From: an uncultured delta proteobacterium
Lineage (GTDB): Bacteria > Desulfobacterota > Desulfobulbia > Desulfobulbales > Desulfocapsaceae
Direction of reading: 5' to 3'
NCBI GenBank assembly: GCA_903901335.1
Contig: CAIUQR010000061.1
Location: forward strand, 124,001-188,000
Length of the DNA: 64,000 bases
Part shown: one piece after another, positions 218 through 21,075 of the stretch
Numbering within the stretch: the stretch's first letter is position 1
Layout: every line of letters starts with the position of its first letter
The notes under the pieces: model-generated
The model's input: only the letters and a program-made list of their open reading frames with translations
Told to the model about the DNA's origin: nothing
Database searches by the model: none
Translations under genes and position numbers: made by a program

Positions 218-2044
218 ATGCGACAGAAGAAACTTATCTGGCAGATCTTCCCTGCCAACCTGCTGATTATCCTGGTTACGATGGGGGGCTTTACCTGGTA
301 TGGCGCAATCGCCCTGAAGGATTTCTATCTCCATGAACTGGATACGGATCTGGCAGACAGGGCACATCTGGTCAGAACAACCGTTAATGAATATATGGGC
401 GAGGAGTCGTATTCCAAACTGAAAAAATTCTGCGTAATTTCAGGAAAAGAATCGGCAACCCGGATTACGGTTATTGATCCTGCGGGGAAGGTCCTGGCCG
501 ATTCCGATGAAGATGCCGAAACCATGGAAAACCATCGTGACAGGCCTGAGATCATCGAGGCGATGCACGGCAATGTTGGGAAATCATTACGGTTCAGCAG
601 AACATTACGCACTAGAATGTTCTACGTGGCCATTCCGTTGCCGGGGAGTGCAGGCAAAGAAGAGCCGGCTGAGATCATCGGTGTCCTCAGGATGTCCGTA
701 CCGGCGACGGCAATAGATGCCACCCTGCAGTCCATCCGGATGAAAATCGGCATAGGCTTGGCAGTAGTCATCCTCTTTGCGGCTGCAGTCGCCCTCCTGG
801 TTTCCCGGAATATCAGCCGGCCCCTTGAGCAGATGAAGCGGGGCGCCGAGAGGCTGTCACAGGGGGATTTCAGCCGGAGGATGTCGGGCCTGCAAAACAA
901 ATCAGCATCCCTGGAGGTGGCGGCGCTCGCTTTTTCTATGGATAGAATGGCCGAGCAGCTGGAAGAGAGGTTCAAGACGATTGTCAGCCAGAGAAATGAA
1001 CTGGAGACTGTCTTTTCCTGTATGGTTGAATCGGTTCTGACCGTTGATCGTAATGAGCGTGTCATTAATCTGAACAAGGCTGCTGCACACCTTTTTGAGA
1101 TCGACAGGGAAAAGGCAAAAGGAAAGCTGGTACAGGAGATTGTCAGAAATGTCCCACTGCAGAAGCAGATTGCGAATATCCTCGAGACCGGAGAACCCAG
1201 GGAGGATGAGATCGTCCTGCAGAATGCGGATGGAGAGAGATTTTTACAGACCAACCTTGTTGTGCTCCATGACGGTAAAAATCAAAGCGGGGATGTGCTG
1301 GTGGTGATGAACGATGTGACCAAGCTCAGGCATCTGGAGAACATGCGTCGCGATTTTGTTGCCAATGTCTCCCATGAACTGCGAACTCCCATCACCTCGA
1401 TCAGGGGATATGTCGAGACGCTGCTCGACGAAAAACTGGAGGATCGTGAAAACGGCGTCAAGTTTCTGGAGATTGTCCTCAGGCAGTCGGACAGGCTCAA
1501 TGCGATCATAGAAGACCTTCTCTCCCTTTCCCGGATCGAACAGGAAGCAGAAAGCAGGGAAATACCCTTGACGGAAGGCTGCCTCAGGCCGGTCCTTGAA
1601 GCGGCGATCCAGACCTGCCGGATCAAGGCCGACCAGCAGGATATTCACATTTCCCTGGATTGCCCCGGCGAAATATGGGGAGTCATGAATGATACCCTGC
1701 TCGAACAGGCCGTGGTCAATCTCCTGGTGAACGGAATTACATACGGTGGAAAGGGTTCAACAGTTGCAGTAAGTGCGGAAATTTCGGGACAGGACAAGAA
1801 CAAGGTCCTGATCCGGGTGAGGGACACAGGCATCGGGATAGGCAGGGAGCATTTGCCGCGGCTTTTTGAACGGTTCTATCGAAGCGATAAGGCCCGCAGC
1901 CGCAAGGTCGGCGGCACCGGTCTTGGGCTTGCGATCGTCAAACATATCGTCCAGGCCCATGGCGGAAGTGTGGAGGTGCAGAGCAGGGAAGGGCACGGAG
2001 CGACCTTTACGCTCAGCATATCCGGGATGGTCAGAGCGTCTTGA
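218..2044 (+). CDS. phoR: PhoR-like membrane sensor histidine kinase
   Basis: This 608-residue membrane kinase should phosphorylate the response regulator encoded just upstream. The N-terminus has a transmembrane helix (about residues 8-32), a periplasmic sensor segment to about 173, and a second helix (about 174-195). A HAMP linker follows (about 196-250), then a PAS domain (about 262-370), a HisKA domain with the phospho-acceptor in FVANVSHELRTP (His about 386), and a HATPase_c domain with DTGIGI and GGTGLGLAIVK. The PAS plus HisKA layout and pairing with a PhoB-type regulator support PhoR. A strong Shine-Dalgarno (taggagg) sits 5-10 bp before the ATG. In this lineage PhoR proteins have a real periplasmic loop, unlike E. 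coli, so direct ligand sensing is possible. Confidence 0.9.
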   Translation: MRQKKLIWQIFPANLLIILVTMGGFTWYGAIALKDFYLHELDTDLADRAHLVRTTVNEYMGEESYSKLKKFCVISGKESATRITVIDPAGKVLADSDEDAETMENHRDRPEIIEAMHGNVGKSLRFSRTLRTRMFYVAIPLPGSAGKEEPAEIIGVLRMSVPATAIDATLQSIRMKIGIGLAVVILFAAAVALLVSRNISRPLEQMKRGAERLSQGDFSRRMSGLQNKSASLEVAALAFSMDRMAEQLEERFKTIVSQRNELETVFSCMVESVLTVDRNERVINLNKAAAHLFEIDREKAKGKLVQEIVRNVPLQKQIANILETGEPREDEIVLQNADGERFLQTNLVVLHDGKNQSGDVLVVMNDVTKLRHLENMRRDFVANVSHELRTPITSIRGYVETLLDEKLEDRENGVKFLEIVLRQSDRLNAIIEDLLSLSRIEQEAESREIPLTEGCLRPVLEAAIQTCRIKADQQDIHISLDCPGEIWGVMNDTLLEQAVVNLLVNGITYGGKGSTVAVSAEISGQDKNKVLIRVRDTGIGIGREHLPRLFERFYRSDKARSRKVGGTGLGLAIVKHIVQAHGGSVEVQSREGHGATFTLSISGMVRAS

Positions 2045-6394: not shown

Positions 6395-8113
6395 ATGTTT
6401 GCCGTTGACCAGGTCATTGCCCAATACTATCCGGCCCTCAATAACAGCAGGATCTGCACACCGGTTATCAAGCTGCTGCTGCGACGTATCCTCCATGAAC
6501 AGGCCTTTATTCGTTTTGCCGAGCACTACTCCCATCTGCATGGCATCGAGTTCGTTGAGCAGTCTCTGGATTATTTCAATTTCAGCTATGCTGTATCCGA
6601 CCTGGAGCGGGAAAACATCCCCGCCTCCGGAAAGGTTGTGATCATCGCCAATCACCCGATCGGCTCACTTGACGGCCTGGCCCTGCTGAAACTGGTGCAT
6701 GGAGTACGCTCCGATGTCAAGATCGTCGGCAATGACCTGCTGCTGTCGATCACCCCTCTCAAACCCTGTCTGCTTCCCGTATCTAACATGAGCGGCACCA
6801 ACATGAAGCGGCATATTCTACCGATCAGCACCGCCCTCGATAACGAGGAAGCGGTTATCATGTTCAAGGCAGGCGAGGTCTCACGGCTCGGCCCCGGCGG
6901 CATCAGGGACGGACGATGGCACAAAGGATTTTTGAAGATTGCTGAACGGGCCAAGGCCCCCATCCTGCCGATTCATGTCGCCGGTCGGAACTCGGCACCT
7001 TTTTATCTCGCTTCGATCCTGATGAAGCCTCTGTCGACCCTGATGCTCGTCGGTGAGATGTTTCGCCAGCGGGATAAACAGATCAGGATGACTATCGGTG
7101 AGATCATCCCCTATGAGTCCTACCGGAACATCACTATTCACAGGAAAGACAGGATAGCCCTGTTCAAGAGGCATGTGTACAGGATCGGCTTCGGGAAAAG
7201 GCCGCTTCTGGCTACTGAATCGGCCGTCGCTAAACCTGAACGCCGTACCGACTTGAAACAGGCGGTCCGCCAGGGCGAACGTCTCGGCAAAACACCAGAT
7301 GGCAAGGTCATCTATCTCTTTGAGCCCTCCGGCTCGTCGCCGGTCATGCGCGAGATCGGCCGCTTGCGTGAATTAACCTTTCGTGCTGTCGGTGAAGGCA
7401 CAGGAAGGCGCCGGGATATGGACCATTTTGACTGGCACTATCAGCATCTCATCCTTTGGGATGAAGATGATCTGGAAATTGCCGGGGCCTACCGTTTTGT
7501 CGATGCCGGCAGGATCATCAGGGAGAAAGGACCGGAGGGTCTCTACTCCGGCAGTCTGTTTGAACTCGATCCGAAGATATGCCCTTTCCTGGAAAATGGA
7601 CTGGAACTCGGCCGCAGTTTCGTGCAGCAAAGGTATTGGGGGAGACGCAGCCTTGATTATCTGTGGTATGGGATCGGTGCCTTCCTCGCCAAAAATCCGC
7701 ACTACCGATATCTTTTCGGCCCCGTCAGCATCAGCAATGCCATGCCCCAGACGGCCAAGGAACTCCTGGTCTATTTTTACAAGCTCTATTTCACCGGCAA
7801 CTCCAGAGCCTCCTGTTCCCGGAATCCGTTCAGTTTTTCCCAGTCTCTCTCAAGCTTAAAAGATGTGTTCGCCGGAGATGACTACTGCGCCGATTTTAAA
7901 AAGCTGAAATCATTGCTGAACAATCTGGGCACGTCTGTTCCTCCTCTCTATAAACAATATACGGAACTCTGCGAGCCCGGAGGTGTCGTCTTTCTTGATT
8001 TCAATATTGATCCGGCCTTCAACAATTGCGTGGACGGCCTGGTCATTGTCGATATACATATGCTCAAGGAGCAGAAACGAAAACGCTATATGGAGGAGAC
8101 TATTCTCGATTGA
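6395..8113 (+). CDS. olsF: Bifunctional ornithine-lipid synthase (OlsF-like)
   Basis: A 572-residue fusion of two acyltransferases. The N-terminal half (about 1-270) is a PlsC/hemolysin-type O-acyltransferase with the block ANHPIGSLDG, a substrate loop FKAGEVSRLGPGGI and the LPIHVAGRNS segment. The C-terminal half (about 300-560) is an OlsB-like N-acyltransferase of the GNAT fold (AGAYRFVDA, ELGRSFV). In characterised OlsF enzymes the C-terminal domain N-acylates ornithine with a 3-hydroxy fatty acid and the N-terminal domain adds the second acyl chain, making phosphorus-free ornithine lipids at the membrane. The ATG has only a weak ribosome-binding site. Its position between phoBR and a PhoH-type gene fits a phosphate-limitation role, but control by PhoB is inferred. 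Confidence 0.8.
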   Translation: MFAVDQVIAQYYPALNNSRICTPVIKLLLRRILHEQAFIRFAEHYSHLHGIEFVEQSLDYFNFSYAVSDLERENIPASGKVVIIANHPIGSLDGLALLKLVHGVRSDVKIVGNDLLLSITPLKPCLLPVSNMSGTNMKRHILPISTALDNEEAVIMFKAGEVSRLGPGGIRDGRWHKGFLKIAERAKAPILPIHVAGRNSAPFYLASILMKPLSTLMLVGEMFRQRDKQIRMTIGEIIPYESYRNITIHRKDRIALFKRHVYRIGFGKRPLLATESAVAKPERRTDLKQAVRQGERLGKTPDGKVIYLFEPSGSSPVMREIGRLRELTFRAVGEGTGRRRDMDHFDWHYQHLILWDEDDLEIAGAYRFVDAGRIIREKGPEGLYSGSLFELDPKICPFLENGLELGRSFVQQRYWGRRSLDYLWYGIGAFLAKNPHYRYLFGPVSISNAMPQTAKELLVYFYKLYFTGNSRASCSRNPFSFSQSLSSLKDVFAGDDYCADFKKLKSLLNNLGTSVPPLYKQYTELCEPGGVVFLDFNIDPAFNNCVDGLVIVDIHMLKEQKRKRYMEETILD

Positions 8114-8193: not shown

Positions 8194-9533
8194 ATGACAA
8201 AAAAGATCTTCATCCTCGACACCAACGTTATTTTGCATGACAGCTCCTGTATCAACAACTTTGAAGAGCACGATATCATCATTCCGATAACGGTTCTGGA
8301 GGAACTGGATAATTTCAAGAAGGGCAGCCAGATCATAAACTACCATGCTCGGCAATTTGTCAGGGATCTGGACCGCCTGGCGACTGACAAGCTGTTTAAC
8401 GGAGGCATGCGCATCGGCGAGGGGAAGGGGACGGTTGCAATACGTCTTGAAATGGCAACGCATCCCGACTTGTGCAATATCTTTCTCCATGGCGAGAGAG
8501 AAGACCATCGCATCCTCAATATTGCCTATCATATTGCCAAGAAACAAAAAAGCCGCACCGTTATCCTCGTCACCAAGGATGTCAATCTGCGCATGAAGGC
8601 CCGCTCCGTCAAACTGATGGCCGAAGACTATACCACCGATTATGTTTCTGATCCGGCGCACCTGTATTCCGGGTGCCGTTGCGAGGAAGATATCTCACCT
8701 CTATTGATCGAGAAACTCTGCAACCAGGACGGAGTTCTCTCTCTTGAAGAATACCGTCCCCACACCCCCCCGCGTCCTAACGAGTATATGATCCTCAGGA
8801 ACGGTAAAAAATCCGCCCTGGCAACCTATGTCGAGGGAGATTCAGGCATTGAGTCCGTCATCAAACGGGTAAAAAAGGAAAGTGTCTACGGTATAACTCC
8901 ATTAAATGCGGAACAATCGTTCGCCGTGCATGCTCTTCTCAACTCCAAGGTTAAGCTGGTAACGATTTCAGGAAAGGCCGGGACTGGAAAAACCCTGCTG
9001 GCGTTGGCAGCGGCACTCGAATGCCGCACCCATTTCCGGCAGATCCTGCTGACACGGCCTGTAGTTCCCCTTTCCAATAAGGATATCGGTTACCTTCCCG
9101 GGGGGATATCCAATCGAAGATCAAACCGTATATGCAGCCGCTCTACGATAACTTAGGCGTTATCAGGAGTCAGTTTCCCGAAAAAAGCGAGATGTTCCAG
9201 CGATTGCAGAAAATGCTCGAACAGGAGAAACTGGCCATTGAACCGCTCGCCTACATCCGCGGCAGGAGTCTCGGCAAGATGTTTATGATTGTCGATGAGG
9301 CCCAGAATCTCACACCACATGAGGTCAAAACCATCATCACCCGGGCAGGCGAAGGGACGAAAATCGTCTTTACCGGTGACATCAATCAGATAGACCATCC
9401 TTACCTGGGAATCCATTCCAACGGACTCACCACACTGATAGACAAGATGCAGGGCCAGAAACTTTATGCCCATATTGACCTACGCAAAGGGGAACGATCA
9501 GAGCTTGCGGAACTGGCAAGCGATATCCTCTGA
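8194..9533 (+). pseudogene. PIN-PhoH ATPase/RNase (PhoH2 type), frameshifted
   Basis: The gene reads as one PhoH2-type protein only if a frameshift is corrected. Frame 1 (8194-9156) gives an N-terminal PIN nuclease domain (FILDTNVILHD, VLEELD, acidic residues through about 130) and the start of the PhoH ATPase, including Walker A SGKAGTGKT and [17 protein letters not shown]. The frame then leaves the family at a run of six G (9100-9105) and stops at 9156. Another frame picks up exactly there ([17 protein letters not shown]) and runs to 9533 with Walker [12 protein letters not shown] and the sensor FTGDINQID. Four or seven G would restore the frame. PhoH2 proteins are RNA helicase/RNase enzymes. 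A recent mutation, programmed slippage or an assembly error are all possible. Confidence 0.85.
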
Positions 9534-9599
9534 GGCTCATTGAATTTTTATTGAATACTAACAGAACCATAATCAAACCCCTGTATCATCCATTGCATT

Positions 9600-11939
9600 A
9601 TGGAACGCCGTAAATATAAAATTTTAGAAAAAAAACATGATATTGAATCCGAAGCCACTGCCTTCGCCAGGCATCTCCGCCATCTAGACCTGCAACCCTT
9701 TGCCGGGGAAGATACCAGCGTCGGGATGGAATATGAACTCCAGGTAGCTGTTGAGGGTGACCCGAAAGATGTTGACCTGCCGCTATCGATTTCCGAATCC
9801 GGATTTTTCCGCAACATCGTCAAACGCGCATCTCGTGGCGATCTCCCGCCGGAAAGCATTGACTCTCTGCGCCAGTTTCTCTACCACAACGACACCGGGG
9901 TCTGGGAAAACAGTTGGGTCAGGCTGAAAGAAGATCGCCTGAACGACTCGGCTAAAAGGCTCCTCAACCATGATCTGCTTGCCGACAAGAATTATCCGGA
10001 CGGCCCGAACCGCAGCGATTCCGAGCGTTTTTTCTTCACCGTAAAAGATGAAAGATGGCTGCGGCTGCCAATCAGCTATCTGCTGAAACTGGCCCTGGCC
10101 GACGCCGTCGACTCTTCGGCACCGATCGCCATCTTCAAGACCGGCCGAGATCTTCTGTCCCATTTTACGAGTGATAATACCTCGCCGGAGATCCTCTCCT
10201 TTACGCTCCCGATGGCAACAGACGGACAGGTCGGCACATTGGCGGCCCGGGAGACGGCAAGGACCTTTCTCTTCTGTCAGATCCTTGTGCAATACGCCAA
10301 TACCAAACTGGGACTTCTCGAATCAGGCCAGAAATGCCTGCTCTATAACGCCCCGCATGCCCCGCATCGCCAGAAAAAACTCAACGAAATCGTGCCGGAT
10401 GGGTTCTACCGGCACCTCTTCATGAGTCCCTGTCTCTCCGGCTGGGATCGGGGGGAAGAAAAACACCGGTATATGGATCTCTGTCATCGGACCCTCTCGC
10501 GCAGTCAGCTCAACACCATCAGCAAGCTGAAGGATGCGGGGATCATCACCAATAATCTGGTGGTACTGCCCAACACTTCCAATACCTGTCTGGCCAATAA
10601 CGGCACCCATGTGTCGCTGGGGAGTCAACAGCTCACCTCGTTTGCCGAAGGTGAGCTGTCAGGCTTTACCCCGGCCGTTGAAAAACATATGGGCGACCTG
10701 GTGATCAAGATCGTCGAGCACTTCCTGCCGCTCTTTGTCAATACCTATACCGCCGCACCTTATCGTCTTGACTTTGCCGATTTTCATCCGGAACGGGTCC
10801 TCGGCTTTCTGCCGCACGAGCTTGATTACACGCACCTGCGCATGCTCTGGCGACGGTGGAAGAAAAAGGCCGACCTGCGCTTTCTCGGTCATTCCTTCAC
10901 CCCCTTCGGTCCCCGTTCGATTGATCAGCTATTTGCCCGGTGCCTGCGACTGCATGGCGATTTAGTTCCCGATTTCCGCCTTATCGATTATCTGGTGACC
11001 TTGCTTTCCACCGAGACCGGCCCGGCCCTTAACGGGCAGACCGGCAACCAGATCCGACTCAAGCAGGAGCTGGCCGAGCTCGGCGTCTTCGATCAGCGCA
11101 TGGCCATGTACCTGCTCTATCGTCAGCGGGAATACTGCACAATCGGCTATTCCGGATTCGAGGGGCGCAGCTATTCGCTCTTTCATAACCTGCTCGACGA
11201 TATGACCGGGGCCGTCAATCTCCAGAATCTGATCACGGCTCTTGCCTACCGTTATATCATCGAGGAACGGGTACGGCACCGGGATATCCCCGACCGGCCA
11301 TCGGTTGAGAGCGAACGGCGGCAGATCTTTTTTGCCGGGGCCATCGGCATTCCAACATTTTTCGTCAAGGCCGATACCCCGAACCGTTTTTTACGAAAGA
11401 TCCTTACCCACGTCAAAAACCAGCGGAACAGCAGACGGTACAAGGGATATATTCGAGTGGAGCTCCAGGAGTACCGGATGGCACTCCTGGAAGTCATCAC
11501 CAGTGACGGCCGGTCCTTAATCGAAACGATGGGCCTGTCCGGGACAATTGAGGATCTCAGGTTTCGGCTCACTGAAGGCGGTACAAGCGCCCTGGACAAA
11601 CTGATCAGCGGCACCATGCAGGCAGGCAACAGCAGGAAAAATCCTCTCCGGATGACTGCTGATACCTTCAACGGGATGACCGAACACTATTATCGCACCG
11701 ACCTGAAGAGACTGCATACACAGGAAGGGCTCCTTGTCCTCGCTGAAGACTGTGAGCGTCTGGAAAGACGCGATGATCCGCATCTCAGGCAGATCATGGC
11801 GGGGCTTAACCGTTCTGCCGCAGGCTTTATCAGCGAGAAAACCGGATCACTGCTGGATGAGACGGCAGCCCCTGATGTCCTGCAGCATCTTCTGCAGATC
11901 GGCCTGACTATCATCCACCACGACCGCCTGAAAAACTGA
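9600..11939 (+). CDS. Large conserved-looking protein of unknown function, first gene of a lipid-linked operon
   Basis: A 779-residue soluble protein with no signal peptide or membrane helix. I do not recognise it securely. The N-terminal GMEYELQV (about residues 42-49) and later N-G-T-H-V-S-L and YRLDFADFHPE blocks recall glutamate-cysteine-ligase-type carboxylate-amine ligases, in which a Glu-x-Glu binds Mg-ATP, but this is a weak resemblance. Other distinctive blocks are WENSWVRL, LPISYLLKLALAD and ELDYTHLRMLWRRW. Its TGA stop overlaps the ATG of the next gene (tgatg), so it is translationally coupled to a phosphatidylserine-decarboxylase-like enzyme. Start chosen at the first ATG in frame; no clear Shine-Dalgarno precedes it. 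The context suggests a role in making or modifying a membrane lipid. Confidence 0.7.
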   Translation: MERRKYKILEKKHDIESEATAFARHLRHLDLQPFAGEDTSVGMEYELQVAVEGDPKDVDLPLSISESGFFRNIVKRASRGDLPPESIDSLRQFLYHNDTGVWENSWVRLKEDRLNDSAKRLLNHDLLADKNYPDGPNRSDSERFFFTVKDERWLRLPISYLLKLALADAVDSSAPIAIFKTGRDLLSHFTSDNTSPEILSFTLPMATDGQVGTLAARETARTFLFCQILVQYANTKLGLLESGQKCLLYNAPHAPHRQKKLNEIVPDGFYRHLFMSPCLSGWDRGEEKHRYMDLCHRTLSRSQLNTISKLKDAGIITNNLVVLPNTSNTCLANNGTHVSLGSQQLTSFAEGELSGFTPAVEKHMGDLVIKIVEHFLPLFVNTYTAAPYRLDFADFHPERVLGFLPHELDYTHLRMLWRRWKKKADLRFLGHSFTPFGPRSIDQLFARCLRLHGDLVPDFRLIDYLVTLLSTETGPALNGQTGNQIRLKQELAELGVFDQRMAMYLLYRQREYCTIGYSGFEGRSYSLFHNLLDDMTGAVNLQNLITALAYRYIIEERVRHRDIPDRPSVESERRQIFFAGAIGIPTFFVKADTPNRFLRKILTHVKNQRNSRRYKGYIRVELQEYRMALLEVITSDGRSLIETMGLSGTIEDLRFRLTEGGTSALDKLISGTMQAGNSRKNPLRMTADTFNGMTEHYYRTDLKRLHTQEGLLVLAEDCERLERRDDPHLRQIMAGLNRSAAGFISEKTGSLLDETAAPDVLQHLLQIGLTIIHHDRLKN

Positions 11940-12961
11940 TGAGCACAACGCCTGGCACCATCCACCAGTATATCGACCGGGAGACGAGCCTGGTTGTCAC
12001 CGAAAGACTGATCGGAGACAGGACGGTTGACTTCCTCTACAACAGACTGCGGGAAAATACCCCGGCAGTGTTCCGGGCACTGACCTCGGCAAGGATGTCG
12101 GGCCTACTCGGCTTCTGTAACTACGACCTGCCTGTTGCAACCCGTGATCAGACCTGGAAGGTCTTCGAACGTCTCGGCATTGACTGGCGGGAATGCGTGC
12201 AACCTTTAAGCTCTTTTACGACCATGCGCCGGATCTTCGAACGGCAGATCAAATACTGGGAGCTTCGTCCTATGGACAATGATCCTGCCGCCATCGTCTC
12301 ACCGGCGGATGCCCGTCTTCTCCTCGGCTCATTTTCCGAGACTTCGTCGCTTTTTATCAAGGAAAAATTCTTTGATCTTAGAGAGTTGCTTGGCAGTGAT
12401 AGCCGCTGGTATCCAGCCTTCGATTCAGGGGATTTCGCCGTCTGCCGTCTTACTCCGGACAAGTACCACTACAACCATCTGCCGGTCTCGGGCACAGTGG
12501 CCGATATCTACGAAGTCGACGGCAGATACCATTCATGCAACCCTTTAGCATCCGTCGCAATAGCCTCAATCTATTCGAAAAACCGGCGGGTGATCACCAT
12601 CATCGATACCGATGTTAAAGGCGGTTCACAGGTCGGCCTGGTGGCCATGGTGGAGATAGTCGCCTTGATGATCGGGGATATCCAACAGGCCTATAGCCCA
12701 TGGCAATATATTCATCCCGAGCCCGTCCGTACTGGACTCTTTGTCGGTAAAGGCTGCCCGAAGAGCCTGTATCGCCCCGGCAGTTCAACGGATATTCTGA
12801 TCTTTGAACCGGGGAAGATCGGTTTCAGCCCGGATCTGACAACCAATTCCAGGCGGAGTGACGTGCAAAGCCGATTCACCGGTTTTACTGGCAGGCCTCT
12901 TGTCGAGACCGATATTAAAGTCCGCTCACCCCTGGCACGAAAAAAAAAAGGTAAAACATAG
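11939..12961 (+). CDS. Phosphatidylserine decarboxylase-like pyruvoyl enzyme
   Basis: A 340-residue protein with the features of the phosphatidylserine decarboxylase family, which cleave themselves to form a pyruvoyl cofactor. The triad is visible: Asp in VSPADARLL, His in the KYHYNHLPVSGTV block (family: YHRFHxPxxG), and the self-processing Ser in RPGSSTDILIFE (family: GST/GSS), where cleavage would fall between Gly and Ser. The segment GLVAMVEIVALMIGDI matches the membrane-facing VGaixVGsI strand. It starts within the stop codon of the upstream gene and is followed 10 bp later by an Lgt-like gene. Whether the substrate is phosphatidylserine or a related amino-acid lipid is open; a second, standard psd gene elsewhere would favour a specialised role. 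Confidence 0.8.
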   Translation: MSTTPGTIHQYIDRETSLVVTERLIGDRTVDFLYNRLRENTPAVFRALTSARMSGLLGFCNYDLPVATRDQTWKVFERLGIDWRECVQPLSSFTTMRRIFERQIKYWELRPMDNDPAAIVSPADARLLLGSFSETSSLFIKEKFFDLRELLGSDSRWYPAFDSGDFAVCRLTPDKYHYNHLPVSGTVADIYEVDGRYHSCNPLASVAIASIYSKNRRVITIIDTDVKGGSQVGLVAMVEIVALMIGDIQQAYSPWQYIHPEPVRTGLFVGKGCPKSLYRPGSSTDILIFEPGKIGFSPDLTTNSRRSDVQSRFTGFTGRPLVETDIKVRSPLARKKKGKT

Positions 12962-12971
12962 AGGAGGTGCC

Positions 12972-14024
12972 ATGCCGGACATGATCTTTCTTGTAGCGAT
13001 GACCTGCCTGCTTGGCCTGTTGCTGGCCTGGGGATTCAAACACCTGCCCGGAGAACGCTGGCAGATGCTGGCCGTGATCCCGAAGAGCAAAGGCAGCGAT
13101 GAGCGGTGGCAGGGTGTCAACCTTACCTATTACGGATTTTTTCTGGCCACCGGGCAGATCTTTGCCGTCGTCCTGCTCATGATCCTGCTGGGCGCCGCGG
13201 GTGTTTCGCTTGCCGGAACGCTGCTGGCCACCGCCCTGATTCTGGGTGTCTGCATCCCGGCATCTCGTATCGTAGCCATCCTGGTGGAAAAGAAACGTCA
13301 CACCTTCACCATCGGCGGGGCCTCCTTTGTCGGGATTGCGCTTGCCCCCTGGTGCGTCATACTGGCGGAAAAAATCATGAACACCTTTTCCGAATGCCGC
13401 CTGCCGATGCTGCCGGTTCTGACAGCCATGGCAGTTGCCTATACCCTGGGCGAGGGGTTGGGGCGGTTGGGATGCATCAGCTTCGGCTGCTGTTACGGTA
13501 AGACGCTCAGGGACTGCAGCCCGCTCATGCAGCGGGTCTTCTCGCGGACCGCCTTCATCTTTCAGGGGCCGATGAAAAAGGCGATCTATGAAGGAAGAAC
13601 GGGCGACCAGCCTTTGATACCCATTCAGGCCATGACCTGCATCCTCTACTGTCTTACTGCAATTGGCGGGAGCTTCCTTTTTCTGCGCGGCTGTTTCACC
13701 GCCGCCTTCCTCCTCAGCATCAGTGTGACTCAGGTCTGGCGCATTCTCTCAGAGACCCTGCGGGCTGATTTTCGAGGATTTTCCAAAATATCCGCCTACC
13801 AGAAAATGGGTGGACTGGCCGTGGTCTATGTCTTTTTAATCGTGCCCTTCCTTGATACCCCGCAACTGGCCACGCCGGTCATCGCCGAAGGCATCGGTCT
13901 GCTCTGGCATCCCGGGATCATCATCGGCCTGCAGGCCTTCTGGCTGGTCACCTTTGCGGTTTTCGGCCGCAGCACCGTTACCACCTCCACCCTTTCTTTT
14001 CAGCTTATCCGGGAACATCTCTAA
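12972..14024 (+). CDS. Lgt-like (prolipoprotein diacylglyceryl transferase family) membrane protein
   Basis: A 350-residue polytopic protein, about seven to nine membrane helices, with the Lgt-family signature in a divergent form: EGLGRLGCISFGCCYGK (about residues 160-176) in place of GRxGNFxNGExxG. The Asn that is essential in E. coli Lgt is Cys here, as in a broad Lgt-like subfamily with GRxGCFxxGCCYG. It is therefore probably a transferase acting on phospholipid head groups or lipid anchors rather than the housekeeping lipoprotein enzyme. The start at 12972 follows a perfect gaggagg at 6-12 bp; a longer frame starting at 12858 inside the upstream gene was rejected. It is third in the operon after the 779-residue protein and the decarboxylase-like enzyme. 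Confidence 0.75.
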   Translation: MPDMIFLVAMTCLLGLLLAWGFKHLPGERWQMLAVIPKSKGSDERWQGVNLTYYGFFLATGQIFAVVLLMILLGAAGVSLAGTLLATALILGVCIPASRIVAILVEKKRHTFTIGGASFVGIALAPWCVILAEKIMNTFSECRLPMLPVLTAMAVAYTLGEGLGRLGCISFGCCYGKTLRDCSPLMQRVFSRTAFIFQGPMKKAIYEGRTGDQPLIPIQAMTCILYCLTAIGGSFLFLRGCFTAAFLLSISVTQVWRILSETLRADFRGFSKISAYQKMGGLAVVYVFLIVPFLDTPQLATPVIAEGIGLLWHPGIIIGLQAFWLVTFAVFGRSTVTTSTLSFQLIREHL

Positions 14025-14036
14025 AGGAAAGCGGGG

Positions 14037-14924
14037 ATGCAGGAAATCGACACTCTCACTGAGACCCTGTTTGCCGATACTCCAAAAGGTCTGCTTTACC
14101 ATTACACCACCCTGAGCGGTCTGCTGGGAATAGTTCGAAGCCGTACGCTTTGGGCGAGCGATATCAGATATATGAATGACTCTGCAGAGCTGAAGCATTC
14201 GGCAGACCTCATCCGGCAGGAGGTTCAGGCACGCATTACCAGGGGACGCTGCAAGGCGGATTTGCTGGGCCAGTTTACGGACTGGATCTCTCATCGGATC
14301 ACCAACGGGCATATGCTCTTTGGCGCCTCATTCCGTTCGCATGGCAATCTGCTCAGCCAGTGGCGAGGCTACAGCGCCCATGGTAAAGGGGTAAGTCTTG
14401 GCTTTTCCGCAGACTATATATTGCAGTGTGCTCACAAGCAGCAGCTTCAGATCGGCAAATGCATCTACGAACCGGCCAGGCAGCGCCGACTGATCCGCCA
14501 GGTGATTGATGCCGTAGAAGCTCAGGTCGAAAAACACATCGCCTGCAGCACATCCCCGCAGCATTTAACGGCGATCTACCAGGGTGTTTTTGAGAATTTG
14601 GAAATCGATCTGTTGCGGATAGCAGCCGTCATCAAGCACCCTTCCTTTCGGGAGGAGAAAGAGTGGCGGATCGTCTCTCCTGTTTTTACCGATTGTTCGA
14701 ACACGCCGGTCCTTTTCCGGGAGGCAAATGCCATGCTTGTTCCCTATATGGAATTTGACCTTCAGCTTGAGGCCGGATACCCCCTGCAGCTCGACCACCT
14801 CTATCTGGGACCGACACCGAATATCAACATCTCAATGAATTCTCTTGAGATGTTTCTGGGACAAAACGGCATCGTGCCGTCGCGCGGCATTGATTACTGC
14901 CGGATCCCTTATCGGCAGGCCTGA
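14037..14924 (+). CDS. DUF2971 domain protein
   Basis: A 295-residue soluble protein of the DUF2971 family, recognised from YHYTTLSGLLGIV, LWASDIRYMNDSAEL, SFRSHGNLLSQWRGYS and KHPSFREEKEWRIV. The family has no settled biochemical role; the H-Y-T block followed by a late Glu-rich EEKEWR has been likened to ADP-ribosyltransferase-type folds, but I cannot confirm that here. It begins 12 bp after the Lgt-like stop with a ggaaagcgggg ribosome-binding site, so it is probably the fourth gene of the lipid-linked operon. DUF2971 genes often occur in defence or accessory islands, so it may equally be a passenger. Confidence 0.8.
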   Translation: MQEIDTLTETLFADTPKGLLYHYTTLSGLLGIVRSRTLWASDIRYMNDSAELKHSADLIRQEVQARITRGRCKADLLGQFTDWISHRITNGHMLFGASFRSHGNLLSQWRGYSAHGKGVSLGFSADYILQCAHKQQLQIGKCIYEPARQRRLIRQVIDAVEAQVEKHIACSTSPQHLTAIYQGVFENLEIDLLRIAAVIKHPSFREEKEWRIVSPVFTDCSNTPVLFREANAMLVPYMEFDLQLEAGYPLQLDHLYLGPTPNINISMNSLEMFLGQNGIVPSRGIDYCRIPYRQA

Positions 14925-14973: not shown

Positions 14974-16689
14974 TTATTTTTCAACGAAAACCATTGCAAA
15001 CTTTGCATCATATCTGCAGGAGAATCCAAGACTGGTAAGGGCGTCGATTGAAACCTTACTGCCTTTGCTGTCCAGCATACCATCTGTAAACTGAAATTTT
15101 TTCTCTTTAATGGTAAGCGTCCTGGCGCTGGCATCGTAACTTCCTTCGGAAGATGAGGCGATGGATAGTATGTCTACATAGATTTTTCCGTCGATCTCTT
15201 CGGCCTTGCTTGAGCTTCCGGCAGCATAGTTTCCATAGACGACAAGTTTGAGGTCTGCACCGATTACCGGATTATCTTTTGCCGTATGGAATTTCGGAGG
15301 CAGAAGGTCGCCTGCGCTGGTATTTTTTTCAGGATGATCCTTGTCGATGACATAGGTGTCAACCAGAGTTCCATCCTGTTTGAAACACCTGATTGTCAGC
15401 CTTCGGCCATCGAGTTCAACGGTCTGATAATCAGGCTGATCCTGCGGATCGAAGAAGGCGGCATCCCAGACCTTTTTGGTCAGATCGGGATAATACTTTT
15501 CACCGCTCCGCCCGGTGACATAATAGACAGTCCCCTCAGACGAATTCTGCATGATCTCATCCTGGAAGATAGGGTAAGTCCTGGATGACGCATGATCATG
15601 GCCATTGAAGACCACATCTACATGATATGTATCAAAGACCGGACAGAATACTTTCTTTATCAAGGTATTGGTCCTGTTTCCCTTATTGTAGTATGGCGTT
15701 TTGTGGAACAGCACAAAGGTGAAGGCGGCATTCCTGTGGGCGGCAAGGTCCTTGTCCAGCCATGCCGCCTGTTCTTTTAAAAAAGCGTCTTCTTTTACCG
15801 GATCAGCCTTTCCGTCTGCATCTTCGCTTTCTTCCTGCGCCTGGCTGTCGAGCACTGCAAAGTGGCATCTTCCGTAATCGTAAGAATATACCTGGCCTTT
15901 TAAACCATCCGGCCCGTTCTGGAACAGGTTGAACTGGCCTACAAAATATTCGGGCTTTGCACTCTTTGAGTCGTTTCCATTATATGTCTCATGATTTCCC
16001 TCCACAACCAGAGCGGGCAGCGTGTCGATAACACCGTCAACAGCCTTGAACCAGTTGTTCCAGTGTTGATAGTACTGACCGGTTTCGACGAGGTCGCCGA
16101 CATTGATGGAAAATTTTGCATCCGTGTTGGCATGGTAGGCCTTCTGGACGGTCGTATGCCAATTATCATAGTTGGGAACCTCTCTCTTTCCGCTCTGGCT
16201 GTCTCCGAAGAGCAGGAATTTGAAGGTATTGGCTGACTTTTCATCCTGAGATTCGGTTGTAAAAACATGAAAGTTTGTCCACTCATTTTTGTCATTGCCG
16301 ATCTTGTAGATATATTTCGCGCCGGGTTTGAGTCCTGTGAGAGTGGTTGTAAAGATATTCATTGTTCCACTAGAAAGATCGGCTGCAGAAGTTTTGAAGG
16401 CCCTTGGCTGAACAGACGAGATCACCGACATCTTATCAGAATCGCTTTCCAGCGAAATGTATTCAACCTTGCAGCTTTTGACCGAGGAGTCCGTTCTCCA
16501 CGTTATGGTCATGGTTGTAGCAGGGTCTGCTGACCAGGTGAGGGTTATATGGTCGGGTTTGCTTAATGCATTGAGATCGGCATTGATTTGTGTCCCGTCG
16601 TAGGCACCTGCAAAGATGCTTCCAGGTAAAAGAGAAAGACAGGCCGAAATAACCGCCGTCAGAATCCGGTTTAAATCATTTGGTCTCAT
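14974..16689 (-). CDS. Secreted purple-acid-phosphatase-like metallophosphoesterase
   Basis: A 571-residue exported enzyme. The N-terminus is a Sec signal peptide ending near SIFA-GAYDG. A fibronectin-like PAP N-terminal domain follows (about 45-150), then a calcineurin-type metallophosphoesterase domain with the metal motifs FGDSQSG, VGDLVETG, GNHET and NGHDHAS (about 160-430). A C-terminal domain (about 475-571) resembles the copper-amine-oxidase-like stalk domain (EIDGKIYVDI, SYDASARTLTI). It probably releases phosphate from organic phosphates outside the cytoplasm. The ATG at 16689 is preceded by ggaggag; a GTG four codons upstream is less likely. It is divergent from a 5'-nucleotidase-like gene across a 254-bp shared promoter region. 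Confidence 0.85.
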   Translation of the reverse strand: MRPNDLNRILTAVISACLSLLPGSIFAGAYDGTQINADLNALSKPDHITLTWSADPATTMTITWRTDSSVKSCKVEYISLESDSDKMSVISSVQPRAFKTSAADLSSGTMNIFTTTLTGLKPGAKYIYKIGNDKNEWTNFHVFTTESQDEKSANTFKFLLFGDSQSGKREVPNYDNWHTTVQKAYHANTDAKFSINVGDLVETGQYYQHWNNWFKAVDGVIDTLPALVVEGNHETYNGNDSKSAKPEYFVGQFNLFQNGPDGLKGQVYSYDYGRCHFAVLDSQAQEESEDADGKADPVKEDAFLKEQAAWLDKDLAAHRNAAFTFVLFHKTPYYNKGNRTNTLIKKVFCPVFDTYHVDVVFNGHDHASSRTYPIFQDEIMQNSSEGTVYYVTGRSGEKYYPDLTKKVWDAAFFDPQDQPDYQTVELDGRRLTIRCFKQDGTLVDTYVIDKDHPEKNTSAGDLLPPKFHTAKDNPVIGADLKLVVYGNYAAGSSSKAEEIDGKIYVDILSIASSSEGSYDASARTLTIKEKKFQFTDGMLDSKGSKVSIDALTSLGFSCRYDAKFAMVFVEK

Positions 16690-16943
16690 AATCTCCTCCA
16701 CGTAATTAAATTTGTATTTTAAACTTCTGGAAGATAGCTGTCTGGTGTTAATTTCATGTTACGATTTAAAAATATTTTGATTAAGAAATTACCCGCTGTC
16801 CTTTGCCGTTCTCTCCCCTCATCATCTAACACAAATTTCAATAAATACTGACAGTAAACTAACACTATCCGGCGATAATACCCCCAAATCGGAGAGGGTG
16901 ACTTCTCTTGCTCATCACAGGGTACACACTGCCGGAGATTATT

Positions 16944-18584
16944 ATGGACTGCGACTCGCATTTAGCCTCAACCCGCTTTTCCTATCGTTTCAGATTGAAA
17001 TTTCTTCTTCTCGGCTTTCTTCTTCTCTTGTTTGCGCCATTGTCCGCCTGGGTCCGGGCTGAGAAGGATCTCTGTGGTGATTCGCATGGAGATCCACGGT
17101 GCAGGCAGCCATTCGGCAACGACTGTTCAGACATTCAGAAGATCACCTTTGTCCATGTTTCCGATGTCCACGCCCGATACAATCCCGACAAAAACGGGTC
17201 TTCTCCGGCGGGACGGATCCGAGGATATTACCAACAGGTGAAAAAGGAAAACCCCTTCACCCTTTTCACCAACGCCGGCGACGATTATGAAAAAGGCTCA
17301 ATTGCCGAAGAACTCTCCCGGGGACAATCAACAAGAGAAGTGGTGGAGGCCATGCAATATGACGTCCGCACCCTCGGCAATCATGATTTTGCCTGGGGGA
17401 TTGAGGAATTGTTGCGTTTCAGTCACGATCCGTCCGCCATCGTACTTGCCACTAATACCACGATGAGACCCGGATCTGAACAGTCCTCCCGCTCTGCGGC
17501 ACCGGGATGGACCGATTTTGCCATTCGGACCGTCGGATGCGTCAAGATCGGTTTCTTCGGCCTGCTTTCCAAGCCCTGGAATGAAAAAGATCAACAATAT
17601 GAAGGCCTGTTTTACCCGGAAATTCCAGAATTAAAGACCGATTTTCATTTTATCGACAGAGCCAAAGACATTATTGCCAGACACCGGCAGGAGGTGGATG
17701 TCCTGGTCCTTGTCAGCCATCTGGGTTTACCGGACGACATTGCTTTGGCGGAAAAGACAACCGGCATCGATCTGATCCTGGGTGGACACAGCCATACGAA
17801 AATGGAAGTGCCGCTGCGTGTGCATGACACGACTATTGTTCATGCCGGCGCCTTTGCCCAGACGATAGGCAGATACGACATCGAATATGACGTGAAACAG
17901 AAAAGCATCGTCGACAGCAGCTTTAAACTTGTGGCCAACAGCCCCGAAGACATACCGGAAGACCGGGCAACGTCCATCAGGATATCCGGGATTCTGAAGA
18001 AATATGAACAGGAAATGAACGAAACCATAACCGAGGTAAGTAAGGATCAGAACAGACAGGACATGGCTCTTATTGCTGCCCGTGCAGCCGTATCAACACT
18101 GAAGACCGATGCAGCGCTGATCAATATCGGGACGGTGGGGCCGGAATGGCTGCAGGGGCGACTTACCCGCCAGGATATTCTTAACAGTTTCACAGTGGAG
18201 CGACAACCAGCAGGCACTTCGGGACAGAGCAGTCTCTACGTAACGACGGTCAGGGGAACAGATCTGCTTTATGCTGCAGCAGCAAGAGCTGATTCCGTCT
18301 ACTATGGACCGTCATCATTAAATCCAACGGCCTCATACACCATCGCCATTCAGAAAGCGCAGGCCATCAATCAGCGGGAGTTTTTAGGCAGAACGATTGG
18401 CATGACTTCGCCCAAACCGGCAGCAGAAGTCTGGGAGACCGTTGCCGCCTATGCAAAGGACCGCAGGGTGGAGGGACTTTCCATTGATGAAGGACTCCAT
18501 AACCGGGAAAACCGCAATCTGATAGCACTCCTGCAAGGTAGGAATTACGATACGCATTTAGGTGAAAGTGCAGTAATTCTCTGA
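16944..18584 (+). CDS. Secreted 5'-nucleotidase / cyclic phosphodiesterase family enzyme
   Basis: A 546-residue exported UshA-type metallophosphatase. A long signal peptide (hydrophobic run FLLLGFLLLLFAP, likely cut after WVRA) precedes the catalytic domain with HVSDVHARYN, NAGDDYEKG, TLGNHDF, VSHLGL and GGHSHTKM. The C-terminal domain (about 360-546) corresponds to the 5'-nucleotidase nucleotide-binding domain but is short and divergent. The expected role is phosphate release from nucleotides in the periplasm. Start chosen at the ATG with ggag 6 bp upstream; the in-frame TTG at 16908 has no ribosome-binding site. The divergent neighbour is another secreted phosphatase, consistent with coordinated phosphorus scavenging. 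Confidence 0.85.
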   Translation: MDCDSHLASTRFSYRFRLKFLLLGFLLLLFAPLSAWVRAEKDLCGDSHGDPRCRQPFGNDCSDIQKITFVHVSDVHARYNPDKNGSSPAGRIRGYYQQVKKENPFTLFTNAGDDYEKGSIAEELSRGQSTREVVEAMQYDVRTLGNHDFAWGIEELLRFSHDPSAIVLATNTTMRPGSEQSSRSAAPGWTDFAIRTVGCVKIGFFGLLSKPWNEKDQQYEGLFYPEIPELKTDFHFIDRAKDIIARHRQEVDVLVLVSHLGLPDDIALAEKTTGIDLILGGHSHTKMEVPLRVHDTTIVHAGAFAQTIGRYDIEYDVKQKSIVDSSFKLVANSPEDIPEDRATSIRISGILKKYEQEMNETITEVSKDQNRQDMALIAARAAVSTLKTDAALINIGTVGPEWLQGRLTRQDILNSFTVERQPAGTSGQSSLYVTTVRGTDLLYAAAARADSVYYGPSSLNPTASYTIAIQKAQAINQREFLGRTIGMTSPKPAAEVWETVAAYAKDRRVEGLSIDEGLHNRENRNLIALLQGRNYDTHLGESAVIL

Positions 18585-20329: not shown

Positions 20330-20649
20330 GGAGTTTTCTGCAAAATTGAAAAAGGGGGTAAGCTGGTTTTTTGCCGATTCGGTCAGGAGATCATCACAGA
20401 GAGGAGAGGGCCGCATAATAGACACGACCTGAATCCAAAAGGCACGCCTCTCGAACATCGCCAGCAGGGTAGAGAAAAAAACAGAAGGGTTGAGGTTTGG
20501 TTAATGTAATTATTTTCTTAGAGCAATTTTAACACGACCATAACCCCGTAAAAATAAATGTGCGATAGTATCAGGGGCAACATGGAAGATAGGAGTGTAT
20601 AGCCCGAACAGAAGGACAAAAAAAACAGAAATTGAGAAGGAGAACAACA
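20330..20649. other. Intergenic region upstream of the dksA-like gene
   Basis: About 320 bp with no gene on either strand that has a start site or motif. A 126-codon minus-strand frame (20518-20898) is an antisense shadow of the dksA-like gene. No convincing terminator follows psiE. Confidence 0.4.
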
Positions 20650-21075
20650 ATGCTGGAATATCGTTTTGATGAATATCGTCCCACGGAAGATGAAGAATAT
20701 ATGTGCCCTAATCATCGTGAATATTTCAAACAAAAGCTCCTGGCACGGCGGCAAGAACTCATAGCGATATCGCAGCTCTTTCTCGTCGAACTCAAAGAAA
20801 ACGGTATCAAGGCGGCCGATACCCTTGATCAAAGCAGTCATCATGCCGAGATGTTTATTGATTTTTCCACCAGCGAGCGGCAGCAGAAGATTCTGCATGA
20901 CATCGACCTGGCCCTGGTCAGGATAGAAACAGGTGAATATGGCTATTGCGAAATCACCGGTGAAGAAATAGGTCTAAGAAGGCTAGAGGCCCAGCCTCTT
21001 GCCGCCCGCTGCGTCGAGGCCCAAAAAATATTTGAACGCTCCATGAATGTGAAGACGCGAGTGGCAAACTGGTAA
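20650..21075 (+). CDS. DksA/TraR-family transcription factor, zinc-independent type
   Basis: A 141-residue DksA-family protein that should bind the secondary channel of RNA polymerase and act with ppGpp. The coiled-coil tip appears as ADTLDQSS (family: DxxDxA), followed by the C-terminal region GEYGYCEITGEEIGLRRLEA and AARCVEAQ. The usual four zinc Cys are reduced to the pattern Cys-Thr-Cys-Ala (CEIT ... CVEA), the same pattern as Pseudomonas aeruginosa DksA2, which folds without zinc. The start is the ATG with aaggag 7 bp upstream; an in-frame ATG 18 bp earlier lies before that site. A Zn-free paralogue would be useful under metal limitation or in sulfidic conditions where zinc is scarce, which is inference. 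Confidence 0.88.
   Translation: MLEYRFDEYRPTEDEEYMCPNHREYFKQKLLARRQELIAISQLFLVELKENGIKAADTLDQSSHHAEMFIDFSTSERQQKILHDIDLALVRIETGEYGYCEITGEEIGLRRLEAQPLAARCVEAQKIFERSMNVKTRVANW

Follow-up and report, generated by a model that had tools for sequence, protein, structure and literature searches.

What do three closely packed genes do that lie beside an ornithine lipid synthase gene in an uncultured Desulfobulbales bacterium, two of them encoding relatives of phospholipid and lipoprotein enzymes? The genes (G1, G2 and G3, together the trio) are located in a 64,000-nucleotide stretch of contig CAIUQR010000061.1 (positions 124,001 to 188,000, forward strand), hereafter the window, whose own numbering is used below. 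The trio is an obligate unit with links to the Pho regulon and to the ornithine lipid synthase OlsF, and G2 and G3 are remodelled paralogues of lipid enzymes. Taken as a whole, the data tilt towards a Pho-regulated pathway for a phosphorus-free membrane lipid; each chemical step of that pathway is clearly less certain than the overall reading. The unit and its promoter comprise the following features:

9546..9574, + strand: Pho-box-like 11-bp direct repeats 5' of G1 (overlapping position weight matrix matches at 9546 and 9557; three repeat units)
9600..11939, + strand: G1, soluble protein of an undescribed family, 779 aa (invariant motifs GxExE, DNxSPE, NNGxH, ESERRQ)
11939..12961, + strand: G2, phosphatidylserine-decarboxylase-like predicted pyruvoyl enzyme, 340 aa (PF02666; D124, H177, H180, GSST at 281-284)
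12972..14024, + strand: G3, Lgt-like membrane protein, 350 aa (PF01790; signature GRLGCISFGCCYG; membrane segments)
14037..14924, + strand: G4, DUF2971 protein, 295 aa, a passenger outside the core (PF11185)

All four open reading frames (ORFs) were intact and on the + strand. Most details of the first-pass annotation, which was made from the letters of the window, were reproduced: the tgatg overlap of the G1 stop and the G2 start is exact (11937-11941), as is the 12-bp spacing between G3 and G4, and the families are those proposed (G2, PF02666, E 8e-35; G3, PF01790, E 3.6e-8; G4, PF11185/DUF2971). The gaggagg before G3 is present, at 4 bp from the ATG and not at the claimed 6 bp.

A three-gene unit conserved across the phylum

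G1 was present in 13 of 58 close relatives and, in a phylum-wide sample of 395 genomes, in 45. The G3 subfamily was likewise present in 45 of these 395 genomes, 44 of them G1 genomes. In the genome with G3 only (G173), G2 adjoins G3 and the contig ends at the expected place of G1. The genome with G1 only (G420) carries just a 32-residue G1 remnant with a stop codon (G420:C1:3048051-3048146), which suggests that this lineage has lost the trio.

The order and strand of G1-G2-G3 were identical in 52/52 loci examined; the gaps or overlaps between the genes were mostly tiny and the flanking genes varied. Close relatives of the locus were from Desulfobulbales: L016 (81% identical, labelled Desulfocapsaceae), L017 (Desulfobulbus) and L018 (Desulfoprunum). 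When the two genes closest to the trio on either side were tallied without preselection, no constant partner outside the trio emerged. A few loci carry inserted genes. In L079-L081, G2 and G3 are separated by a DksA/TraR gene, whose family was assigned on the L080 copy; the inserts of L066 and L087 are glycosyltransferase or small-phosphatase-like genes. In L066 (1010-5816), the genes between G2 and G3 encode a PHP-GT4 fusion and another protein, of ~735 aa.

The real unit is the three-gene core G1-G2-G3. The four-gene coupled unit described previously was thus retained for G1 to G3, whose coupling is far beyond chance with near-perfect co-occurrence in genomes, but not for G4. Rare joint occurrence of the core homologues had been named as the outcome that would speak against the unit; the homologues were together at every locus examined. 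Among the loci read, the DUF2971 gene trails the trio only here and in a same-genus genome, and it was rejected as a member of the unit. Within this genus G4 (14037-14924) is tightly attached to the trio, and it gave a weak PADLOC candidate match (PDC-S31, E 0.015). A defence system was also rejected (PADLOC: no matches for G1-G3, only weak matches for G4), as was a phage or plasmid origin, G1 being absent from the phages, plasmids and viral contigs searched.

G2 and G3 are remodelled copies of Psd and Lgt

G2 scored 120.7 bits against PF02666 (cut-off 22), and its profile alignment to E. coli Psd had an E value of 8e-17. Residues D124, H177, H180 and S282 align with D90, H144, H147 and S254 of E. 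coli Psd: the catalytic and self-cleavage residues (Asp, His and cleavage Ser) are kept, as in the homologous phosphatidylserine decarboxylases (PSDs) and PsiD-type tryptophan decarboxylases. On these alignments, G2 is genuinely related to E. coli Psd and is a predicted pyruvoyl enzyme. It differs from Psd in scoring under every NCBIfam PSD equivalog cut-off (best score 141.3 bits, cut-off 371) and in its N-terminal region, which lies outside the E. coli Psd alignment.

G3 scored 33.5 bits against PF01790 (cut-off 24.9), and was far under the cut-off of the NCBIfam lgt equivalog (20.8 bits against 118.9). Residues were mapped by alignment with E. coli Lgt and with the housekeeping Lgt of the same genome, and 12 sequences were compared (E. 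coli Lgt numbering). G3 is a homologous membrane protein that keeps the donor-side Arg/Glu network, with R239, E243 and R246 in 12/12 sequences and R143 in 11/12, together with the equivalents of Y26, G27 and G154. It differs from Lgt in the replacement of H103, N146, N149 and E151 (in 12/12, Cys takes the places of N146 and E151, and the His is missing from the H103 position), and in its co-inheritance with G1 and G2. The Lgt signature GRxGNFxNGE is absent, and GRLGCISFGCCYG stands in its place. The Cys that had been noticed at the position of the essential Lgt Asn is C168, at N146, and is conserved. Work on E. coli Lgt assigns R143 and R239 to the donor lipid site and to catalysis, and H103, R143 and E151 mutants of that enzyme are inactive (PMC4728403). 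Because H103, N146 and E151 are lost, G3 should not be a lipoprotein enzyme. A fold model of G3 from three sequences reached a predicted local distance difference test (pLDDT) score of 50 and had no significant PDB match.

The housekeeping Psd and Lgt are encoded elsewhere in the same genome, and G2 and G3 are therefore specialised extra copies. For G3, the separate Lgt and the residue mapping bear out the earlier suggestion that it is not the housekeeping enzyme.

G1 represents a family without known relatives

Across the phylum, G1 was mostly 47-53% identical to the window protein, and an alignment of 45 sequences had >100 invariant columns. The protein has no hydrophobic segment and is thus considered soluble. 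No family match was obtained in Pfam, NCBIfam or PDB, with G1 as a single sequence or as a profile, and a Pfam search of the 45 members gave no credible family in any of them; among these, the respective Pfam matches for BtaA and GH3 were not found. An AlphaFold2 model of G1 from 4 sequences had a pLDDT of 37.

G1 had been tentatively proposed to be a carboxylate-amine ligase. If it were of the glutamate-cysteine-ligase or amine-ligase type, the unit could attach an amino-acid amide to a lipid. By eye, the motif order GxExE, DNxSPExxSF, GxHxSLG recalls GshA/GCS, and one of the 45 members had a stray match (0.043) to a guanido-kinase model. Against this stand the searches of Pfam, NCBIfam and PDB and the profile-profile comparison: with small template sets (two usable GCS2 sequences, one GshA), hhalign gave a probability below 3% for GCS2/GshA. 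The links of G1 to GCS2, GshA and guanido kinases found no support (the guanido-kinase scan met that family nowhere and so carries no weight), the ligase call was not upheld, and we consider this explanation quite improbable.

Linkage to phosphate and ornithine lipid genes

The surroundings of the trio tie it to the Pho regulon and to OlsF. Directly 5' of the window, the contig carries pstS and phoU (identified by model) and pstC, pstA and phoB (recognised by eye from translations). The contig order is pst/phoU/phoB, phoR, OlsF, a PhoH2-like gene, the trio and two metallophosphatases. The context features inside the window are:

218..2044, + strand: PhoR-like sensor kinase (PnpS/PhoR models)
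6395..8113, + strand: OlsF, bifunctional ornithine lipid synthase (NF052615, 838.6 bits, cut-off 620)
8194..9533, + strand: PIN-PhoH (PhoH2-like) gene, frame-shifted
14974..16701, - strand: purple-acid-phosphatase-like metallophosphatase (PF16656, PF00149)
16836..16865, + strand: Pho-box-like 11-bp repeats 5' of the 5'-nucleotidase-like gene
16908..18584, + strand: 5'-nucleotidase/UshA-like metallophosphatase (PF00149; UshA/5'-nucleotidase models)

With genomes taken as independent and genes as uniformly placed, PhoU was found ≤15 kb from the trio in 13/54 trio genomes (expected 1.9, P 1e-7), and a PstS-like protein ≤20 kb from it in 14/54 (expected 1.8, P 7e-9). Six of the nine trio genomes that have an OlsF-like gene carry it ≤16 kb from the trio (expected 0.09); collapsed to genera, the adjacency was 5/8 (P 3e-8). 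By presence across the phylum, OlsF and the trio were only weakly associated (9/45 against 36/350, p 0.08), and the signal is the adjacency. The first-pass annotation had placed an unusual lipid unit beside an ornithine lipid synthase; this is supported by the curated OlsF model, the 6/9 adjacency and the Pho-regulon surroundings. The connection to phosphate is new.

In three loci (L024, L025, L104), an LpxH/PlcP-like phosphoesterase and a glycosyltransferase family 4 (GT4) gene lie beside the trio. A PlcP-like gene was rejected as a constant partner, since it was found in only 6/54 genomes. In L069 (2384-4883), genes for a lipid kinase, a PAP2 phosphatase and a glycosyltransferase resembling monogalactosyldiacylglycerol (MGDG) synthase directly follow G3, and look like a glycolipid remodelling set.

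This context would be identical if the trio were a salvage device, in which G3 strips the phosphate-bearing head off phosphatidylglycerol (to water or a simple alcohol), the diacylglycerol goes to glycolipid synthases, and G1 and G2 process the released head or another metabolite. A switch of acceptor, for instance to water, would be compatible with the loss of H103, N146 and E151 from a protein that retains the Arg network. A PSD-type decarboxylase would have no obvious job in such a device, yet G2 is in every locus; moreover, such work is done in other bacteria by PlcP-like phosphoesterases, which adjoin the trio in three genomes. We consider salvage an unlikely explanation.

Pho-box-like repeats in trio promoters

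A de novo motif search in 53 trio promoters returned TTmAC repeated at 11 bp, with a log-likelihood of 150 against 94-123 in four shuffled sets. The repeat is close to the PhoB box of D. vulgaris, in which (c/t)GTnAC is directly repeated (PMC3333781). The trio-promoter matrix scored 13 classical pstS promoters over background (p 4e-4) and, reciprocally, a pstS-promoter matrix scored the trio promoters over background (p 4e-7). A first scan with generic PF12849 proteins, many of which were on the other strand or not classical PstS, gave no motif signal; the scan was positive when repeated with GATFP-type PstS only. The 9546-9574 repeats in the G1 promoter are the best matrix match inside the 64-kb window. 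Over ~70 kb of the contig, the two best matches of a merged matrix were the pstS and G1 promoters (pstS higher), a ranking that is an illustration and not an independent test, as both promoters had fed the matrix. Pho-box-like repeats are thus present in the genome of the window and, statistically, across genomes, and are weak in many single promoters.

Two other sites in the window carry such repeats. At 16836-16865, two 11-bp repeats, ACTGACAGTAA and ACTAACACTAT, precede the 5'-nucleotidase-like gene (16908-18584), which is a further candidate for the Pho regulon. At 20480-21075, tandem 11-bp Pho-box-like repeats (matches at 20517 and 20528) lie 5' of a small ORF (20632-21075) that looks DksA/TraR-like by eye; together with the DksA/TraR-type genes inside the trio in L079, L080 and L081, they hint at a Pho-controlled DksA.

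The trio could instead make a modified phospholipid or an envelope or lipoprotein anchor, with G2 acting on phosphatidylserine or a relative, G3 acting on a non-standard lipoprotein, and the Pho neighbourhood being incidental. The origin of G2 and G3 in phospholipid and lipoprotein families would suit this, as would the two thirds of trio genomes that have no Pst or PhoU gene nearby. The clustering with PhoU, PstS and OlsF and the pstS-like promoter motifs are well over expectation, however, and the residues required for lipoprotein Lgt activity are lost in G3; we judge this alternative to be unlikely as well.

Several observations also weigh against a Pho-regulated pathway for a phosphorus-free lipid. 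About 2/3 of the trio genomes lack both PhoU and PstS at a distance of ≤20 kb from the trio. The enrichment P values assume uniform placement and, except for that of the genus-collapsed test, independent genomes. The matrix built from pstS promoters only puts just ~11% of trio promoters over the 95th percentile of background, so that many of them have a degenerate box or none. G1 has no match that would assign it a fold or a chemistry. Finally, diacylglyceryl transfer may not be the reaction of G3, because it has lost three residues on which E. coli Lgt depends.

Proposed pathway

In the Pho-regulated pathway that we prefer, phosphate starvation would turn on the trio through PhoB, as the promoters and the linkage suggest. 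G3 would take diacylglyceryl from phosphatidylglycerol, like Lgt, and its pattern of kept and lost residues suggests an altered acceptor site, where a small molecule would replace the lipoprotein cysteine. The glycerol-1-phosphate released by G3 would allow phosphate to be salvaged. From the chemistry of its family, G2, with a self-made pyruvoyl group, would decarboxylate an amino-acid-type head group, before or after transfer, to give an amine. G1, the soluble member of a new family, may make the acceptor or activate it, as its constant presence beside G2 and G3 suggests.

The phosphorus-free product would probably be an amino lipid: a diacylglyceryl lipid whose head group bears an amine and contains no phosphorus, present beside ornithine lipids and glycolipids. 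In phosphate-limited D. alaskensis, ornithine lipids and glycolipids replace >80-90% of the phospholipids (PMC5193443). More tentatively, the product may be a new lipid class in which diacylglyceryl is joined by an ether or thioether bond to a decarboxylated amino acid or small peptide. An Lgt-derived diacylglyceryl transferase acting on small molecules would make it together with the new G1 enzyme family; we consider this possibility less likely than not.

Comparison with known systems

Several known systems share parts of the proposed function. OlsF/OlsBA makes a phosphorus-free amino lipid, as proposed for the trio, which it often adjoins, and ornithine lipid synthesis is induced by phosphate limitation in D. 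alaskensis (PMC5193443). In contrast to the trio, OlsF/OlsBA are acyltransferases that build an acyloxyacyl lipid without any Lgt-, PSD- or G1-like protein, and many trio genomes have no OlsF-like gene. PlcP-Agt turns phospholipid into phosphorus-free glycerolipid under phosphate limitation, and a few genomes carry PlcP/Agt-like genes next to the trio; this system consists of a phosphodiesterase and a glycosyltransferase, proteins unrelated to those of the trio.

The betaine lipid made by BtaA/BtaB (diacylglyceryltrimethylhomoserine, DGTS) has a diacylglycerol base and an amino head group, like the proposed product. BtaA/BtaB are an S-adenosylmethionine-dependent transferase and a methyltransferase. 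G1 matches no Pfam family and so is not BtaA. In Sinorhizobium, BtaA/BtaB are Pho-controlled, according to work cited in PMC5193443. The GH3-dependent OlsH/OlsI ornithine lipid pathway of planctomycetes is a precedent for the discovery of an undescribed ligase-based amino-lipid route via genome context (PMC12493201), although G1, unlike these proteins, has no GH3 match.

Other observations in the window

The PhoH2-like gene 5' of the trio is split by a frame shift into ORFs 8194-9156 and 9132-9533, which is either a real lesion or an assembly error; L027 carries an intact relative.

Implications

Pho-controlled lipid replacement is already known. No description of the trio gene set, its Lgt-derived partner or the G1 family was found in the open-access literature searched. 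If the proposed pathway is true, anaerobic sediment bacteria would have an unrecognised means of replacing phospholipids when phosphate is scarce, the large orphan enzyme family of G1 would gain a function, and Lgt would have been turned from protein lipidation to lipid making. If the product is indeed a new class, it would join betaine lipids, ornithine lipids and glycolipids as a phosphate-starvation lipid, widespread in sediment sulfate reducers. The pathway predicts a specific phosphorus-free lipid that would be findable by mass spectrometry and might be used to trace phosphorus limitation in sediments.

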